From Salinimicrobium tongyeongense (lineage in GTDB: Bacteria > Bacteroidota > Bacteroidia > Flavobacteriales > Flavobacteriaceae): DNA of 64,000 nt. Below are positions 24,730 through 32,015 of this stretch, piece after piece. How positions within the stretch are numbered: the stretch's first letter is position 1; each line of letters opens with the position of its first letter. Made by a program: the position numbers and the translations under genes. Below the pieces are notes generated by a model. That model searched no databases. It had not been told where the DNA came from and saw only the letters and a program-made list of their open reading frames with translations. The stretch lies in assembly GCF_026109735.1 (NCBI RefSeq), contig NZ_CP069620.1, positions 434,001 to 498,000 on the forward strand, read 5' to 3'.

Positions 24730-24841
24730 AAGCCGGTCTTTAACTTTCCATTTAGAAATAGCCGCAATCCCTTGTTAGGTACGTGGGGAGTTATTATCTT
24801 TCAGACTTATTACTGAATATTGAACCCTAACATTGAAAGAT

Positions 24842-27247
24842 ATGTCTGAGAAAGAAAAACTGTCAAACAAGGAACAACAGGAAAACCAAAACAAAGCCCT
24901 GAATTCCCAGGCCCAGACCGGAGCCGAAAAGACAGAGAAAAATGCTGAAAAAGCTTCCGAGGAGAAAGAGGAGCGAGATTCCATTGCAGATGCTATGGTA
25001 GACGAGTCTAAAGCGAGTGAAGACAGGAGAAAGGCCGAACCCGGCTCCTCTGCCGAATCGCTTTTGGAAGGTGACGATGAGGGGGAAGAGCAGCCGGCTT
25101 CTCAGAAAAAAGAAACTACGCCAACTCCCAATAAAACTGCGGGTAACCCAGCTGCTTCAGAAGAAAAGGAAAGCAAGGATATTGAAGATGCCATGGTAGA
25201 TGAAGCCAGGTCTACCGAAGATAGAAAGGGACTTGAACCTGTTACCTCACCCGAATCGGCTTTAGAAAGCGACCATGAAGATGAAGAGCCTTCAGCCAAT
25301 GCAGGGGAGAAAACTTCCGAAGAAAAATCGGAAGCCAAAAATCCCTTTTTTGACACCTCAGGTACGGGAACTTCCAATGAAAAAGTGCAAGATTCTTCCG
25401 AAGAAAATAATGAGCCTACTGAGGACCAACCACAGCAAAAAGCAGCCCGTGATGCCCAAAGCGAAATGGATGATGCCGTTGCTGAAGACAGTGAAGACGA
25501 AGCCACTGCCGAGCGTCATGGCATAGAGAAGAAAGATTACCACGCCATGAGCAAGGAAGCCCTTGCCGATGAACTGGAAAAACTGCTCAAAAACGAAAAA
25601 GTACAGGCAATTAAAGAGCACGTTGAAGAAATACGGGCCGAGTTTAATGCCAAACAAGACGAGGAAATTGAAGAGAAAAAAGAAGAATTCCTGGCCGATG
25701 GCGGGAATATTATTGACTTCCACTACTCTACTCCCTTAAAAAAGCGCTTTAATTCGCTGTATTTTGACTATAAGGAAAAAAGGAACAAACACTACCAGCA
25801 GCTCAAGCAGGACCTCAATAAAAACTTGGAAAAAAGGCTGGAGATCATTGAAGAACTGAAGGGCCTTATTGATGTTGAAGAGAATATCAATACCACTTAC
25901 AAGCATTTTAAAGACCTGCAGGACCGCTGGAAAACAGCAGGATCAATTCCGCGGGATAAGTACAACACCGTGTGGAATACTTATCACCACCACGTAGAGA
26001 ATTTTTACGATTTTCTGCACCTCAACCGCGAGTTTAGGGACCTCGACTTTAAACACAACCTTGAGCAGAAATTAAAGATCATAACCCGCGCAGAAGAGCT
26101 TACACAGGAGCCAGACACCAACCGTGCGTTTAGGGAGCTGCAAATGCTGCACAAAATGTGGAAAGAAGACCTTGGCCCCGTAGAAAAAGAGTACAGGGAA
26201 GATATCTGGCAAAAATTCAGCGAGGCCACAAAGCAGATCCACGATAAGAGACAGGAGTACTTCGCGCAGCTGGAAAAGGATTTTGAGAAGAACCTTGAGA
26301 AAAAGCAGCAAATCATAGATCAGATAAAAAGCATTGCTTCGGAAAAATATACTTCCCACAAGCAATGGCAACAGAAGATTACTGAAGTTGAGGCTTTAAG
26401 AGAGGCGTTCTTCAATGCTGGAAAGGTGCCGCGGCATGTCAATGACGAGACCTGGAAGAAATTCAAGGAAGCAGTGCGCAGCTTTAACCGCAACAAAAAT
26501 GCATTTTACAAGAACCAGAAAAAAGAACAGTACGACAACCTTGAGAAAAAACAGGAACTGGTAAGGATTGCCGAAGAACATAAAGATAGCGAGGACTTTA
26601 AAGTCACTACGCCGCTTATGAAAAAGATCCAGACCGACTGGAAGAATATTGGCCATGTGCCCCGCAAAGACAGCGATAAGATCTGGAAAAAGTTCAAAGC
26701 TGCCTGTAACCACTACTTTGACCGACTGCACGCTTCCCGAAATGAAGAAAACAAGGAAGAAAACGAGGCTTTTGATCAAAAGAAAGACCTGCTTGATAAG
26801 CTAAAGAATATTGAACTTACCGGCGATCGCAAACAGGATCTTCCCACCATCAAAAACTTTATTGAGGAGTGGAAGAAACTGGGCCGTGTGCCGCACAGCA
26901 AACGCTATATTGAAGGAAAGTTCAACAAAGCCCTTGACCAGGCTTTTGACAAGCTGGATCTGGATAAGAAACAGAGCGAAATGCTCAAGTACGAGAACAA
27001 AGTACAGGCCCTTGAGAATTCTGATGATTCAAGAAAGCTGAACAACGAGCATTATTTCCTCACCAAAAAGATCGAGGAAACAAAAGCCGAAATTAGGCAG
27101 CTGGAGAACAACCTACAGTTCTTTTCAAATGTAGATGATAAGAATCCCGTGGTGCAGGAAGTTCACAAAAACATCCGCAACCACAAGGAACAGCTAAAGA
27201 TCTGGAAAGAAAAGCTCGAAAAAGTAAAGTCACTTTACGACGAATAG
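24842..27247 (+). CDS. DUF349 domain-containing protein with acidic N-terminal repeat
   Basis: This 801-residue cytoplasmic protein has a low-complexity acidic N-terminus (about 1-230), then a series of DUF349 helical repeats. Each repeat has a W-K pattern such as FKDLQDRWKTAGSIPRDKYN, LREAFFNAGKVPRHVNDETW, IQTDWKNIGHVPRKDSDKIW and FIEEWKKLGRVPHSKRYIEG. The acidic part holds a tandem duplication: IADAMVDESKASEDRRKAEP and IEDAMVDEARSTEDRKGLEP. DUF349 function is unknown. ATG at 24842 was preferred to the TTG three codons upstream. Its terminator is interrupted by an IS element. Confidence 0.85.
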   Translation: MSEKEKLSNKEQQENQNKALNSQAQTGAEKTEKNAEKASEEKEERDSIADAMVDESKASEDRRKAEPGSSAESLLEGDDEGEEQPASQKKETTPTPNKTAGNPAASEEKESKDIEDAMVDEARSTEDRKGLEPVTSPESALESDHEDEEPSANAGEKTSEEKSEAKNPFFDTSGTGTSNEKVQDSSEENNEPTEDQPQQKAARDAQSEMDDAVAEDSEDEATAERHGIEKKDYHAMSKEALADELEKLLKNEKVQAIKEHVEEIRAEFNAKQDEEIEEKKEEFLADGGNIIDFHYSTPLKKRFNSLYFDYKEKRNKHYQQLKQDLNKNLEKRLEIIEELKGLIDVEENINTTYKHFKDLQDRWKTAGSIPRDKYNTVWNTYHHHVENFYDFLHLNREFRDLDFKHNLEQKLKIITRAEELTQEPDTNRAFRELQMLHKMWKEDLGPVEKEYREDIWQKFSEATKQIHDKRQEYFAQLEKDFEKNLEKKQQIIDQIKSIASEKYTSHKQWQQKITEVEALREAFFNAGKVPRHVNDETWKKFKEAVRSFNRNKNAFYKNQKKEQYDNLEKKQELVRIAEEHKDSEDFKVTTPLMKKIQTDWKNIGHVPRKDSDKIWKKFKAACNHYFDRLHASRNEENKEENEAFDQKKDLLDKLKNIELTGDRKQDLPTIKNFIEEWKKLGRVPHSKRYIEGKFNKALDQAFDKLDLDKKQSEMLKYENKVQALENSDDSRKLNNEHYFLTKKIEETKAEIRQLENNLQFFSNVDDKNPVVQEVHKNIRNHKEQLKIWKEKLEKVKSLYDE

Positions 27248-27266
27248 CATTCTCTACCAAAAAAAA

Positions 27267-27289
27267 GCACCCTCAAAAATGACATTTTT
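27267..27289 (+). terminator. Left half of an IS-split terminator
   Basis: GCACCCTCAAAAATG followed by ACATTTTT lies 20 bp after the DUF349 stop. It is the 5' arm and start of the 3' arm of a hairpin whose remaining part is at 28701-28724. Joining the two flanks across the IS rebuilds a perfect 15-bp stem followed by nine T. Confidence 0.75.
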
Positions 27290-27332
27290 AGAGTGCCCCC
27301 AAAAAGTTAGACACTTATTGGGGGCATTTTTT

Positions 27333-27851
27333 ATGGATAAAAGAGTAAAGTATGACTATAAATTTAAAAGGACTATAGTCTTAGAAGTTATCAAGAAGGG
27401 ATTATCGTGTTATTCAGTAGGTAACAAGCATGGTCTACGTAAGTCATTAGTGCAAAAATGGGTTAGGTTTTATAAGGCTCACGGTGCTAAAGGATTACGA
27501 CCTATTAGAAATAAATATTCAGAAAAATTTAAGGCGAGAGTAGTTCTGGAGATGAAAGAGAAATCTCTATCTTACCAAGAAACTTGTGTGCTCTTCAAGA
27601 TTCCAACCGAGGAAACCTTTAAGCGATGGTTGAAGATTTATGAAGAGAAAGGGCCAGAAGGTTTATCAATAGAAAAACGAGGAAAACCTAAATCTATGCC
27701 TAGAAAGCCTAAAAAACCTATGACCCGAGAGGAGCAACTTTTGGATGAGTTAGCTGATCTTAAAGCAGAAAATGCTTATCTAAAAAAGCTTCATGCCTTA
27801 GTTCAATCAGAAAAAGAGAAAGAAGAAAAACGCAAATCATCCAGGAATTAA
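27333..27851 (+). CDS. IS3-family transposase OrfA (helix-turn-helix)
   Basis: This 172-residue protein contains two helix-turn-helix modules (YDYKFKRTIVLEVIKKGLSC and NKYSEKFKARVVLEMKEKSL). A basic PRKPKKP linker and a leucine-zipper-like end (ELADLKAENAYLKKLHALVQ) follow. This is the classic OrfA layout of the IS150 group. ATG at 27333 was chosen; upstream in-frame sequence is the IS end. An A-AAA-AAG heptamer at 27782-27788 lies in frame near its end and would allow -1 frameshifting into OrfB. Confidence 0.9.
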   Translation: MDKRVKYDYKFKRTIVLEVIKKGLSCYSVGNKHGLRKSLVQKWVRFYKAHGAKGLRPIRNKYSEKFKARVVLEMKEKSLSYQETCVLFKIPTEETFKRWLKIYEEKGPEGLSIEKRGKPKSMPRKPKKPMTREEQLLDELADLKAENAYLKKLHALVQSEKEKEEKRKSSRN

Positions 27852-28669
27852 GGCAAGAGCATGCGCTAGAAAAACTACTAAAGCATGCCGGGATGGCACG
27901 TAGTACCTTTTACTATCACTTAAAGGCCAGTAAACAGGATAAGTATGAGGTTCTTCGTAAAGAAATCAGATCTATATATGATCTACACAAGGGACGCTAT
28001 GGGTACAGGAGAATCCAGTTAACTCTGAAGAACAAAGGCTATGTAGTGAATCACAAGACTGTGTTTAAGCTCATGCAGGAGCTAGGGATCAGCAGTTTGA
28101 TAAGGGTCAAGAAATATACTTCCTACAGAGGAAACCAAGGGAAAATAGCGGCTAACTTGTTAAAGCAAAATTTTAAAGCCGATAGACCTAACCTAAAATG
28201 GGCAACTGATGTTACAGAGTTCAAAGTCAAAGACAAAAAGCTTTATTTATCACCTATTATAGATCTCTTCAATGGAGAAGTCCTAAGCTTTACCATCTCT
28301 GAGAGACCTAATTTTAAACAGGTAATGGATATGATTAATAAGTGTAGCAAACAGGAAAAACAGGGGCTTATTCTTCATTCTGACCAAGGATGGCAGTATC
28401 AAATGAAGCAATATCAAAAGACCCTACAGAAAAAGAACATCACCCAAAGCATGTCGAGAAAAGGAAACTGTTTAGACAATGCCGTGGCAGAAAACTTCTT
28501 TGGAACTCTAAAATCTGAGCTGTATTACCTAAATCAATATAACACTGTAGATCAACTAAAGCAGGATATAAAAGATTATATAAAATACTACAATTATGAC
28601 AGAATAAGACTAAACCTAAATGGAATGAGCCCGATACAATATCGAGCTCACGTAGAAAATTTAATCTAA
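27788..28669 (+). CDS. IS3-family transposase OrfB (rve integrase), made by -1 frameshift
   Basis: This is the DDE transposase part. The frame is open from just after the slippery heptamer at 27782-27788. It carries the family N-terminus IIQELRQEHALEKLLKHAGM, then ARSTFYYHLK. HTH_21 GRYGYRRIQLTLKNKGYVVN is followed by the rve core, with Asp in KWATDVTEF, Asp in LHSDQGWQYQ and Glu in AVAENFFGTLKSE. There is no ATG/GTG/TTG before 27893, yet family residues precede it, so expression as an OrfAB fusion is expected. It appears intact. Confidence 0.9.
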   Translation, partial: ASCLSSIRKRERRKTQIIQELRQEHALEKLLKHAGMARSTFYYHLKASKQDKYEVLRKEIRSIYDLHKGRYGYRRIQLTLKNKGYVVNHKTVFKLMQELGISSLIRVKKYTSYRGNQGKIAANLLKQNFKADRPNLKWATDVTEFKVKDKKLYLSPIIDLFNGEVLSFTISERPNFKQVMDMINKCSKQEKQGLILHSDQGWQYQMKQYQKTLQKKNITQSMSRKGNCLDNAVAENFFGTLKSELYYLNQYNTVDQLKQDIKDYIKYYNYDRIRLNLNGMSPIQYRAHVENLI

Positions 28670-28700
28670 TTATAAACCGTCCAACTTTTGGGGGCTAGTC

Positions 28701-28724
28701 CATTTTTGAGGGTGCTTTTTTTTT
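28701..28724 (+). terminator. Right half of the IS-split terminator with T-tract
   Basis: CATTTTTGAGGGTGC (28701-28715) is the exact complement of the arm at 27267-27281 and is followed by nine T (28716-28724). This is the displaced 3' arm of the DUF349 gene's terminator. Confidence 0.75.
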
Positions 28725-28747
28725 GGGACAGCATTGAATATTTATAA

Positions 28748-28814: not shown

Positions 28815-31800
28815 TTATTTTCTCTTCTTCTTAATATAATCTGCAGTTAGCCTGCTGCGGTTTCCTTTTTTGTAGTATTTGGTGAACCTCCAGTAAGAAA
28901 CAGCACCTAAAATGGCCACTACCACTACAGAATAATACACAAAGCTTGGTGTAATCACTTTATCTCCGCTGGCATAAGAATGTAGGCCGGATAGGTAGAA
29001 ATTTACCCCAAAATAGGTCATCATGATACTGGCAAATGAAACTACTGCCATAAAATTGAACAACCAGCGGCTTCTCATTCCCGGCACCAGGCGCATGTGA
29101 ATCACAAACGCGTAGACCATAATACTTACCAAAGCCCAGGTCTCTTTTGGATCCCAGCCCCAGTAACGCCCCCAGCTTTCATTGGCCCACTGCCCTCCAA
29201 GGAAGTTCCCGATGGTCAACATCACCAAACCAATGGTAAGCGCCATTTCGGTAATAATCGTTATTTCTTTGATGGTAAGGTCCATCTTCTTTTTATTGTT
29301 TTTGGTGGTAAAGATCATGAGGACCAAAGCTACCGCCCCCAGGATCATCCCCAGGGTAAACGGCCCGTAACTACCTACAATAACCGAAACGTGAATCATT
29401 AACCAGTAAGAATCGAGTACCGGTTGCAAATTGGCAATAGAGGGATCCATCCAGTTCCAGTGTGCGATCATCAGGATCATGGAGGTCACAAAAGCCGTAG
29501 ATGCAAGGGTAAGGTCGCTTTTTCTTCCAAAGAGCAATCCAAAGAGCATGGTTGCCCAGCCCACATAGATCATAGACTCGTAAGCGTCGCTCCAGGGAGC
29601 ATGGCCCGAGACGTACCAACGCGCAATAAGGCCTGCTGTATGCAGCACAAAGAAAATAACTATGGCTGCTTTACTCAGCGTGATCAATAAGCGTATAGCT
29701 TTACTGTCTTTAAAGATCTGGAAGATCACAAAGATCAACATAAGCACCCCTGCAATCATGTACATTGAAAAGAGGTTCCTGAAAATGTCATATTTGTTGT
29801 ATAAAATCTCTGTTTCCAGTTTCTTTTCTGAAGGGATTACTTCTCCTCCAAATTTTTTCTGAAAGCCTTTTATACTGTTCAGCAGTTCGTTGGCCTGAGT
29901 GTAATCTCCGGTCTTTTTTGCGGTTTGTAAAGCGCTGAAGTACATTGGAAGGATTTGCCTGGTATATACAGAATCCATTCCTTTAAACCCGGCCTCGGCA
30001 GCTTCTGGGAACGAAACCCACTTGTCGTTCTCGTGTCCCGGGATTGGAAAGATCCTAAGGATTTTTCCCTGCAGGGCATTGTAAAGCAAGTTCACCCGCC
30101 TGTCGGTTTCTATAAAGTCTTTTTCAAATTGATCGGGCACCGCGGCCATGTAGGCGCGCTCCAGGTAAGGAGAGAGCTTATAGTTTCCTTCCCTGTCAAA
30201 AAAGCTGGTTAGCGCGATAAATTTCTGATCTTCGGGCACACCTACAATATGCCTGATGCTGTCATTATCCTTTTTAACATTTATCACCGGTACATTGTAC
30301 CACATGGTAGGATTTTCGGTAAGGGAGATCATCACCTGGTCCGCTGTCAATCCTTCATAATCATCACTTTTACTCAGTTTCCGAAGCAATTCAGAAGAAT
30401 ATGTGTTTACAGGCTTCATCCTTCCGCCGGCATCCTGCACTACGAGCCTTCCAAACTCTGCCGCATGCTCTTTGGTAACCACATTGGCCTTAATAATCGA
30501 GTCTATCCTGGCTTTAGGAATGGTAAGCGGATTTTCATGTTCATGTGCTTCTTCCTGCGCAAAACCTGCTGTTGTAGAGAACAGCACCAGTAAAATACCG
30601 GTAATACTGGCTTTTTTCTTCTTCACTTTTTCAAGCATTTGTTTAAGTTCCCCAAACCTCGAACCTTTGGCAAATAAAATCCACATAAGGCCTATGTATA
30701 GCAGCGTGTAACCAATATAAGTAATCCAGGTGCCCCAAAAATCGTGGTTTACCGAAAGAACGGTTCCTTTTTCATCGGGATCAAAAGAGGCCTGGAAGAA
30801 CCTGTAGCCTTCGTAATCGAGTACGTGGTTCATAAAAATTTCGTAATCAAAAGATTGTTCTTCATCAATAACGGTCACCTTACTTTTAAAGGAAGAATAG
30901 CTTTTATCTGTTCCCGGATATTTTTCAGCAATAAAATCGTTCAGTTTTATAGAGAATGGCAGCTCGTATTCTTTGGAGCCATACCTCACGTAAAATTCGA
31001 GACCGCCCAGGTTGAGTTTTATAGGATCGGTGATCATACCTTTTCCACCCAGTAGTTTCACGGTCTCAGATGCTCCTGCGGTGCTCACCCTCACTACGGC
31101 AGCATCCTGCTGACCTTCGGTCTTTTCTTCGGTAGGAATGACGTCATACCTCCCTTTAATCACAGGATCGGGCAGGACAAACTGCATCCCGGCCATGTTG
31201 TAGAGAGAACGCAGCAAAAGCGTTTGTACAGAATCGGCTGCAACCTGGCCTTGAAGCTGATCGGCCATTCGCATGTAGGTGCCTTCAAAAGGAGAAGAGA
31301 TGGTGTATTCGCCATCTTCATGGGTTATGTTAATCGCTCCTTCGGTAGGTTTGTTAAAGGCGAACAGCACATTGTGGATGTTGCTAACCTCCCCTTCCTT
31401 AATGTAGTGGTCGTGGCGGTTTCCACCTCCGGCTTCCACGATCTTGAGGTAATTTTCACCTTCGGGATCTTCTACCAGGCCTTCTTCGGCGCCGTGAATG
31501 TAATCTATGATCTCCAGTTTTACCGGCTGCCCGTTATAATCGGTGTTAAAAGTAAATTCATTGGAAGCTCCGGGTGCCAGCAGCACTTCATTCTCCACTA
31601 CCCTTCGGCGCGGCTGCCCGTCAATTTCGCCGTCAATAAAGGTGGTCAAAAATGTCTTTTCTGAAAGGAAAGTATTTTCGGTAGCCCCTTCCCTAATGGG
31701 CATCATGCCTTCGTAGCTTATGTACCGGGTCACAAAAGCCCCCACCAGGATAAAAATAAAAGAAAGGTGAAGTAACAGGGAAGACCATTTCTCCTTTTTA

Positions 31801-32015
31801 TGAAGGCGGTAACGGAAAATATTCCCCACAAAGTTTACCACAAACAGCGCCATTATCACTTCAAACCACAGGGCATTGTAAATCCAGACTTTGGCGGTTT
31901 CTGTACTGTACCAGTTTTCTATAAAAGTTCCCAGGCCCAGTGCCACGGCAAATACGATAAAAAGGAAGGCCATAAGGCGGGTGGAGAAGATGATAGAAGC
32001 TATTTTTTTCTGCAT
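28815..32015 (-). CDS. ccsA: Fused cytochrome c biogenesis protein CcsB-CcsA (ResB-ResC)
   Basis: This 1066-residue inner-membrane protein of System II delivers heme and ligates it to apocytochrome c. The ResB/CcsB-like half (about 1-480) has N-terminal helices (LMAFLFIVFAVALGLGTFIE) and a large periplasmic domain ending in a membrane helix (TWITYIGYTLLYIGLMWILF). The CcsA half ends in multiple helices with the heme-binding tryptophan-rich signature GRYWGWDPKETWALVSIMVY and histidines in HAPWSDAYESM and IHVSVIVGSYG. Such fusions are usual in Bacteroidota and epsilonproteobacteria. It is a single gene. Confidence 0.93.
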   Translation of the reverse strand: MQKKIASIIFSTRLMAFLFIVFAVALGLGTFIENWYSTETAKVWIYNALWFEVIMALFVVNFVGNIFRYRLHKKEKWSSLLLHLSFIFILVGAFVTRYISYEGMMPIREGATENTFLSEKTFLTTFIDGEIDGQPRRRVVENEVLLAPGASNEFTFNTDYNGQPVKLEIIDYIHGAEEGLVEDPEGENYLKIVEAGGGNRHDHYIKEGEVSNIHNVLFAFNKPTEGAINITHEDGEYTISSPFEGTYMRMADQLQGQVAADSVQTLLLRSLYNMAGMQFVLPDPVIKGRYDVIPTEEKTEGQQDAAVVRVSTAGASETVKLLGGKGMITDPIKLNLGGLEFYVRYGSKEYELPFSIKLNDFIAEKYPGTDKSYSSFKSKVTVIDEEQSFDYEIFMNHVLDYEGYRFFQASFDPDEKGTVLSVNHDFWGTWITYIGYTLLYIGLMWILFAKGSRFGELKQMLEKVKKKKASITGILLVLFSTTAGFAQEEAHEHENPLTIPKARIDSIIKANVVTKEHAAEFGRLVVQDAGGRMKPVNTYSSELLRKLSKSDDYEGLTADQVMISLTENPTMWYNVPVINVKKDNDSIRHIVGVPEDQKFIALTSFFDREGNYKLSPYLERAYMAAVPDQFEKDFIETDRRVNLLYNALQGKILRIFPIPGHENDKWVSFPEAAEAGFKGMDSVYTRQILPMYFSALQTAKKTGDYTQANELLNSIKGFQKKFGGEVIPSEKKLETEILYNKYDIFRNLFSMYMIAGVLMLIFVIFQIFKDSKAIRLLITLSKAAIVIFFVLHTAGLIARWYVSGHAPWSDAYESMIYVGWATMLFGLLFGRKSDLTLASTAFVTSMILMIAHWNWMDPSIANLQPVLDSYWLMIHVSVIVGSYGPFTLGMILGAVALVLMIFTTKNNKKKMDLTIKEITIITEMALTIGLVMLTIGNFLGGQWANESWGRYWGWDPKETWALVSIMVYAFVIHMRLVPGMRSRWLFNFMAVVSFASIMMTYFGVNFYLSGLHSYASGDKVITPSFVYYSVVVVAILGAVSYWRFTKYYKKGNRSRLTADYIKKKRK

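Follow-up and report, generated by a model that had tools for sequence, protein, structure and literature searches.

An IS150-group element that splits a terminator-type hairpin in Salinimicrobium tongyeongense, and evidence for hairpin targeting by its relatives

Introduction

Insertion sequences (IS) that target hairpins are known from repetitive extragenic palindromic (REP) sequences and from IS1272. Among those that use REP sequences are IS1397 and ISKpn1, which we take to be members of the IS150 group. Both are described as IS3-family elements that insert into palindromic units (REP), and the transposase is held responsible for this specificity (PMC1525189). For ISPsy8, an IS3-family element in the REP sequences of Pseudomonas syringae, the duplication is given as 3 bp long and is located on the symmetry axis of a predicted hairpin (PMC1525189). 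IS1272 is described as recognising its target as an inverted-repeat structure, with targets of unrelated sequence, and as replacing the stem-loop (PMC5678879). Here, we describe an element of the IS150 group in a stretch of 64,000 nucleotides (positions 434001–498000; hereafter the window) from the single-contig, 3.51-Mb genome of Salinimicrobium tongyeongense (NZ_CP069620.1; G000, hereafter the home genome). The element lies inside a terminator-type hairpin that follows a gene for a DUF349-repeat protein. From this site and a survey of related copies, we conclude with a probability of roughly 0.88 that the transposase of this element selects DNA dyads as insertion sites, and that most of these dyads are hairpins of the terminator type close to where reading frames end.

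Compared to the available descriptions of IS1397 and ISKpn1, the element is similar in being an IS3-family element that inserts into palindromes, but these two use one family of REP sequences whereas the targets found here are unrelated stems that are mostly of the terminator type. With ISPsy8, it shares a short duplication near the hairpin axis; however, the target of ISPsy8 is a fixed REP sequence in one species. IS1272 is described as replacing the stem-loop without a target duplication, whereas here the hairpin is split and 3–4 bp are duplicated. Group IIC (bacterial class C) introns are reported to home to intrinsic terminators and to insert after the terminator (PMC3522654); in contrast to the element studied here, they are retroelements and insert downstream of the terminator and not in the loop. 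Furthermore, a stem-loop is described as the recognition site of IS1111 (PMC2104537), and a hairpin that ends impinging transcripts is described for IS200 (PMC3196728). The available excerpts on the IS150-like element IS1447 (PMC6211511) and those of PMC4557228 do not mention terminator targeting. In the literature covered, we recognised no report of terminator-loop targeting by IS150-group elements; this coverage is limited, with ISfinder and most subscription papers outside it, and is not proof of absence. What we consider new is a lineage whose targets are terminator-type hairpins with stems unrelated to each other, hit near the dyad axis.

Results

The window copy splits a hairpin

The site of the window copy consists of the following features.

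27259–27284, unstranded: left part of the interrupted hairpin, of bidirectional terminator type, with an A8 tract, the arm GCACCCTCAAAAATG, the centre A and a following CA, read from the sequence
27285–27288, unstranded: left copy of the target duplication, TTTT, with the IS end set by copy L054 (CTAA duplication)
27289–28702, plus strand: IS150-group element of the IS3 family, 1414 bp, with the ends TAGAGTGCC...CTAGTCCA, based on a comparison of six copies, family profiles, identity to InsK and a tree
28703–28706, unstranded: right copy of the target duplication, TTTT, with the IS end set by other copies
28707–28724, unstranded: right part of the split hairpin, TGAGGGTGC with a T9 tract, read from the sequence

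The left arm, GCACCCTCAAAAATG, occupies positions 27267–27281 and is preceded by A8, and the right flank reads TTTTTGAGGGTGC at 28703–28715 and is followed by T9. When the flanks are rejoined without one of the two target copies, they form GCACCCTCAAAAATG-A-CATTTTTGAGGGTGC, a hairpin with perfect 15-bp arms and a one-base centre that is located between two convergent reading frames. This bears out the initial annotation of the window, which was made from the sequence alone and had proposed an IS3-family element inside a terminator after the DUF349 stop, as well as a perfect 15-bp stem with a one-base centre and a T-tract that can be recovered by removing the IS. The extent given there, 27247–28725, does cover the element but also takes in both hairpin halves and their tracts.

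A 7-bp target duplication, CATTTTT, had also been proposed, and this we reject. In copy L006/L054, the target CTAA is distinct from the letters of the IS and fixes its ends as TAGAGTGCC...GGCTAGTCCA with a 4-bp duplication; therefore, the duplication in the window is TTTT, and the additional matching letters are the first T and the last CA of the IS. Whether the duplication is taken as 7 bp or as 4 bp, the reconstructed empty site comes out the same. It has a GC-containing stem, a short loop and a T-tract and comes after a reading frame, and is thus a predicted intrinsic terminator. Perfect hairpins with arms of at least 12 bp and a loop of at most 5 were absent from five first-order Markov shuffles of the window, whereas the real window contains four others by the same rule. 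These lie in the first 7 kb (at 1089, 4467, 4984 and 6453), and three of them have an ACAGGT-type stem in common.

Most related copies are found in hairpins across genomes

Copies were gathered by searches of the genus, the family and the order, by searching six genomes in depth and by scanning named genomes once. In the searches of family, order and class, at most six candidates per genome were scored, and copy numbers there are lower bounds. We obtained 67 loci of the clade, of which 55 have both flanks; 12 loci with one usable flank were dropped (five at contig ends, seven where the end was not found). The 55 copies come from genomes of the home family and order, from named Bacteroidota and, for three of them, from Bacillota. 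Six weak relatives (L074–L079) and loci with partial DNA matches were kept outside the scoring.

In the home genome, all six copies found rejoin to terminator-type hairpins, with a lowest spanning-hairpin score of 28.2. Over all scored copies, a spanning hairpin with a score of at least 18 is present at 43 of 55 sites, compared to 24 of 1,545 background windows from the same loci. Both counts support the suggestion of the initial annotation that the IS targets hairpins, and the first is the check on other copies that it had proposed. Most of the 55 copies have the same layout, in which an A-tract and an arm precede the IS and the complementary arm and a T-tract follow it. Flanks of the same copy pair with a mean of -18.1 kcal/mol, compared to -9.3 kcal/mol for swapped flanks, and none of 20,000 permutations had a sum of flank pairing as low as the observed one. 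Of the 43 hairpin sites, 36 also have an A- or T-tract by a script rule; among the 24 background windows that pass the score, the number is 8.

As a control, we scored copies of two other IS3 groups in the home genome and in genome G756. None of ten copies reaches a spanning-hairpin score of 18, and the highest score is 12.2 (15 places were listed, 12 were fetched in addition to one as L121, and 10 were scored). Two loci of G756, L144 and L145, were left out of this control as they lie beside terminators and their ends were defined differently. At these loci, a different IS3-type element is found directly 3' of a terminator-like hairpin with a T-tract, as is the case for group IIC introns.

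A class search that was made after the hairpin idea had been formed yielded one complete new copy, L164, and reading of its flanks shows a split hairpin here too. The second locus from this search, L163, is at a contig end and its left flank repeats that of L056.

The copies are furthermore found close to the ends of reading frames. Of 53 copies that could be scored, 47 have an open frame of at least 300 nt that points at the element and stops no more than 150 nt away from it, a count for which no background was scored. Such ends are found on the right side only in 17 copies, on the left side only in nine, on both sides in 21 and on neither side in six.

Relatives have uninterrupted hairpins at the empty sites

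The end of the DUF349 gene is present in 11 of 12 genomes of the genus, including the home genome, and G401 has no match at the window site. The empty-site check took the best hairpin in a 190-nt stretch and has no background of its own; by this measure, all ten relatives among them have an uninterrupted hairpin with a score of at least 18 shortly 3' of the DUF349 end. This is the comparison of orthologous loci suggested in the initial annotation. Five of the ten have the same central core, ATGACAT or ATGTCAT, with different outer stems. A hairpin of at least the same score was found in nine of ten relatives read at the site orthologous to L006, and likewise in nine of ten at that of L002, where the nearest relative has an uninterrupted hairpin almost identical to the one predicted from the rejoined flanks. 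The exceptions at these two sites are the loci L169 and L187. Two loci of G403 (L176 and L188) were outside this check.

Insertions are centred on the dyad and the stems differ

For sites with a 3–4 bp duplication and a score of at least 18, we compared the target centre to the hairpin axis. Outside the home genome, the centre is at most 1.5 nt from the axis at 23 of 30 scored sites, and 2.5 to 9 nt off at the other seven. Within the home genome, the sixth insertion is on the axis; the other five are discussed below. Stems and loops differ between and within genomes, with a core shared by five of the six home copies, and copy L054 is inserted at the axis of a hairpin without this core. Thus, the targets do not form one repeated palindromic family, as those of REP-targeting IS do. 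As the stems differ between genera and within a genome, we infer that the feature read is the symmetry or an extruded hairpin.

The palindromic core CAAAAATGNCATTTTTG is itself abundant. With at most one mismatch, it is present at 365 places in the home genome, for instance at 27274–27290 where it is split by the IS, compared to one place for the reversed control; in 11 other genomes of the genus it is found at 0–416 places. At the few sites read, it is the part of a terminator-type hairpin next to the loop, and the outer stems vary.

A different kind of target is seen in G084 and G335, where L091, L095, L097 and L098 interrupt one arm of a short palindrome (GAAAATCC or GAAAGTCC) whose loop has four bases. 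The palindromes lie in an apparent dispersed repeat. By script, L091, L097 and L098 have no A- or T-tract of five or more, and L095 has one.

The element belongs to the IS150 group

The genes of the element, a hairpin at its left end and the neighbouring reading frames are as follows.

24833–27247, plus strand: gene for a DUF349-repeat protein with its 3' end towards the left end of the IS, an open reading frame with five PF03993 stretches
27294–27332, plus strand: element-borne terminator-like hairpin at the left end, a TGCCCCC stem with T6 directly before orfA, fold z -4.9
27333–27851, plus strand: orfA, 172 amino acids, two helix-turn-helix domains (PF13518, PF01527)
27764–28669, plus strand: open frame of orfB, 301 amino acids, with an rve DDE domain and its first ATG at 27893, in frame -1 relative to orfA
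28815–32015, minus strand: convergent long open reading frame of 1066 amino acids with its 3' end towards the right end of the IS, from the listing of open reading frames

In a domain profile search, OrfA has HTH_Tnp_1 at residues 1–54 and HTH_28 at 66–120; an OrfA with two helix-turn-helix regions is a feature of the IS150 group. OrfB contains the rve/DDE integrase core (PF00665 and PF13333) and matches the NCBIfam model NF033516 (transpos_IS3) with 312 bits at a cut-off of 160. The open frame of orfB overlaps orfA in frame -1, which is the layout of the IS3 family, and within the overlap lies an A-rich run, a candidate for the slippery site at which -1 frameshifting yields the fusion transposase of IS3-family elements. 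The terminal inverted repeats are imperfect, with the ends TAGAGTGCCCCC and TGGACTAGCCCCC. Of the 55 copies, 41 have a longest match of 3 or 4 bp between their flanks, one has 5 bp and 13 have 0–2 bp. With its DDE core, -1 overlap and imperfect repeats with a 3–5 bp duplication, the element is a member of the IS3 family. In a tree of 37 rows, which carries a long-branch warning, the 33 rows of the clade (including the window copy) are found together with IS150, and three other IS3-type rows are apart (100/100). Judged from these sequences, the element groups with IS150 and apart from other IS3 groups, and is thus a member of the IS150 group.

Some copies differ in length. L002 and L003 are 99% identical to the window copy but exceed it by 20 bp. 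An alignment of L003 traces the surplus to a 20-bp tandem duplication within orfA, by which the open frame is shortened; L002 has the same length as L003. In the home copy L004/L007, some 1.3 kb of other DNA lies close to the right end, and the two ends are 2735 bp apart compared to about 1414 bp.

Escherichia coli IS150 is the closest named relative tested: its InsK is 53.6% identical to OrfB over 274 amino acids, it belongs to the same clade and has similar ends. Its 17 loci (L146–L162) represent 13 distinct sites, of which one passes the strict hairpin score; by reading, about ten of the 13 lie in hok/sok-type loci at a GC-rich hairpin. As these sites are interrelated and 12 of 13 fail the strict score, we do not count E. 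coli IS150 as further proof that terminators are targeted.

The left end carries a terminator-like hairpin

The stem at the left end, TGCCCCCAA...TTGGGGGCA, is closed by TGCCCCC and GGGGGCA and is followed by T6 just before the ATG of orfA. Of 32 distinct left ends, 29 have the same design by a script rule. The three Bacillota copies are among these, with another stem sequence; the left ends of one Tannerellaceae copy, of one Dyadobacter copy and, unlike the element described here, of E. coli IS150 fail the rule. A scan for sigma-70 promoter and terminator consensus did not list this hairpin, whose loop exceeds the limit of the scan. The initial annotation had proposed that the element has disabled the terminator and that transcripts may read through into orfA. 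Because the left end carries a hairpin and a T-run before orfA, read-through is less likely than proposed, and we rejected it as the main consequence since it is unsupported. The sequence suggests instead that transcription arriving from the left would still run into a terminator-like hairpin ahead of orfA, and that only a broken hairpin remains on the right side. The 53 copies show no preferred orientation by which the left-end hairpin would face the frame that it should terminate (left only 9, right only 17).

Discussion

Several observations weigh against hairpin targeting. At 12 of 55 sites, the score is below 18. Near misses among these are the palindromes L091 and L095 (17.8) and L069 (17.1). 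Six of the failing copies have no matching duplication (L061, L072, L092, L093, L096 and L109) and may be rearranged; L062, L068 and L122 also fail, and neither L096 nor L122 has a spanning hairpin. Of the Bacillota copies L068–L070, only L070 passes with 18.2, and the others score 17.1 and 9.4. Own flanks rank first among the swaps in 24 of 55 copies. In G756 they are often not first because eight of 13 targets share a TCCCGA stem, so that swapped flanks pair well too. In addition, the 1,545 background windows were not restricted to intergenic DNA. Lastly, five of the six targets in the home genome are displaced from the axis by 4.5 nt, and each of them lies in the A5/T5 arm of a core that the five have in common. 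This constant offset looks partly sequence-driven and is the best argument for some sequence preference.

The transposase might accordingly recognise a short sequence motif, such as the A5TGNCAT5 core, that happens to be present in terminators of the host, and not the hairpin. The repeated use of the same core at the same offset fits this explanation, as do the 365 places of the core in the genome and the one stem that is shared by eight of 13 copies in G756. However, L054 sits at the axis of a hairpin without the core, and the targets in relatives across genera are unrelated stems and loops, which makes recognition of a motif unlikely in our view. It is far more improbable still that insertion is random and that only copies between genes or in dispensable terminators survive selection. 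With 47 of 53 copies beside the ends of reading frames, the cost of insertion would be low, and a survey reports that IS3-family elements are over-represented between convergent genes (PMC9208149). Selection for harmless sites would, however, not bring the target to within about 1.5 nt of the dyad axis, as observed at 23 of 30 sites, and none of the ten scored copies of other IS3 groups, which come from two of these genomes, is in a hairpin.

A third explanation couples insertion to transcription: the transposase could be drawn to paused or terminating RNA polymerase, to the RNA hairpin, or to supercoiled or single-stranded DNA at terminators. The A- or T-tracts at 36 of 43 hairpin sites and the position of most copies beside the ends of reading frames are consistent with this. 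In contrast, three of the four palindromic targets in G084 and G335 (L091, L097 and L098) have no tract of at least five, although L095 has one, and the element is found in either orientation to the flanking frame end. We consider this coupling doubtful, albeit the least so of the three alternatives.

If the transposase targets DNA dyads, as we favour, it would select a hairpin-forming inverted repeat, and both IS ends would be joined across a 3–4 bp stagger near the hairpin centre, which would place the arms on either side of the element. Structure or symmetry would be read rather than sequence, possibly in the form of an extruded cruciform in supercoiled DNA, and the helix-turn-helix part of OrfA may read the dyad. 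The hairpin at the left end would terminate transcripts from the left, protect orfA and partly replace the broken terminator.

More tentatively, we propose as a possibility that a lineage of DDE transposons across the Bacteroidota, and perhaps parts of the Bacillota, recognises the shape of intrinsic terminators as DNA (cruciform or dyad), with insertion in the loop or close to it, and carries a substitute terminator in its own left end. If this is true, terminators would be a general, structure-defined safe harbour for a transposon. With targets that are unrelated hairpins hit near the dyad axis, it becomes directly testable whether a transposase reads structure or sequence. The hairpin that the IS brings along suggests a repair of the broken terminator on one side. 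Landing beside the ends of reading frames would explain how these elements persist with low harm while they change 3' ends and termination.

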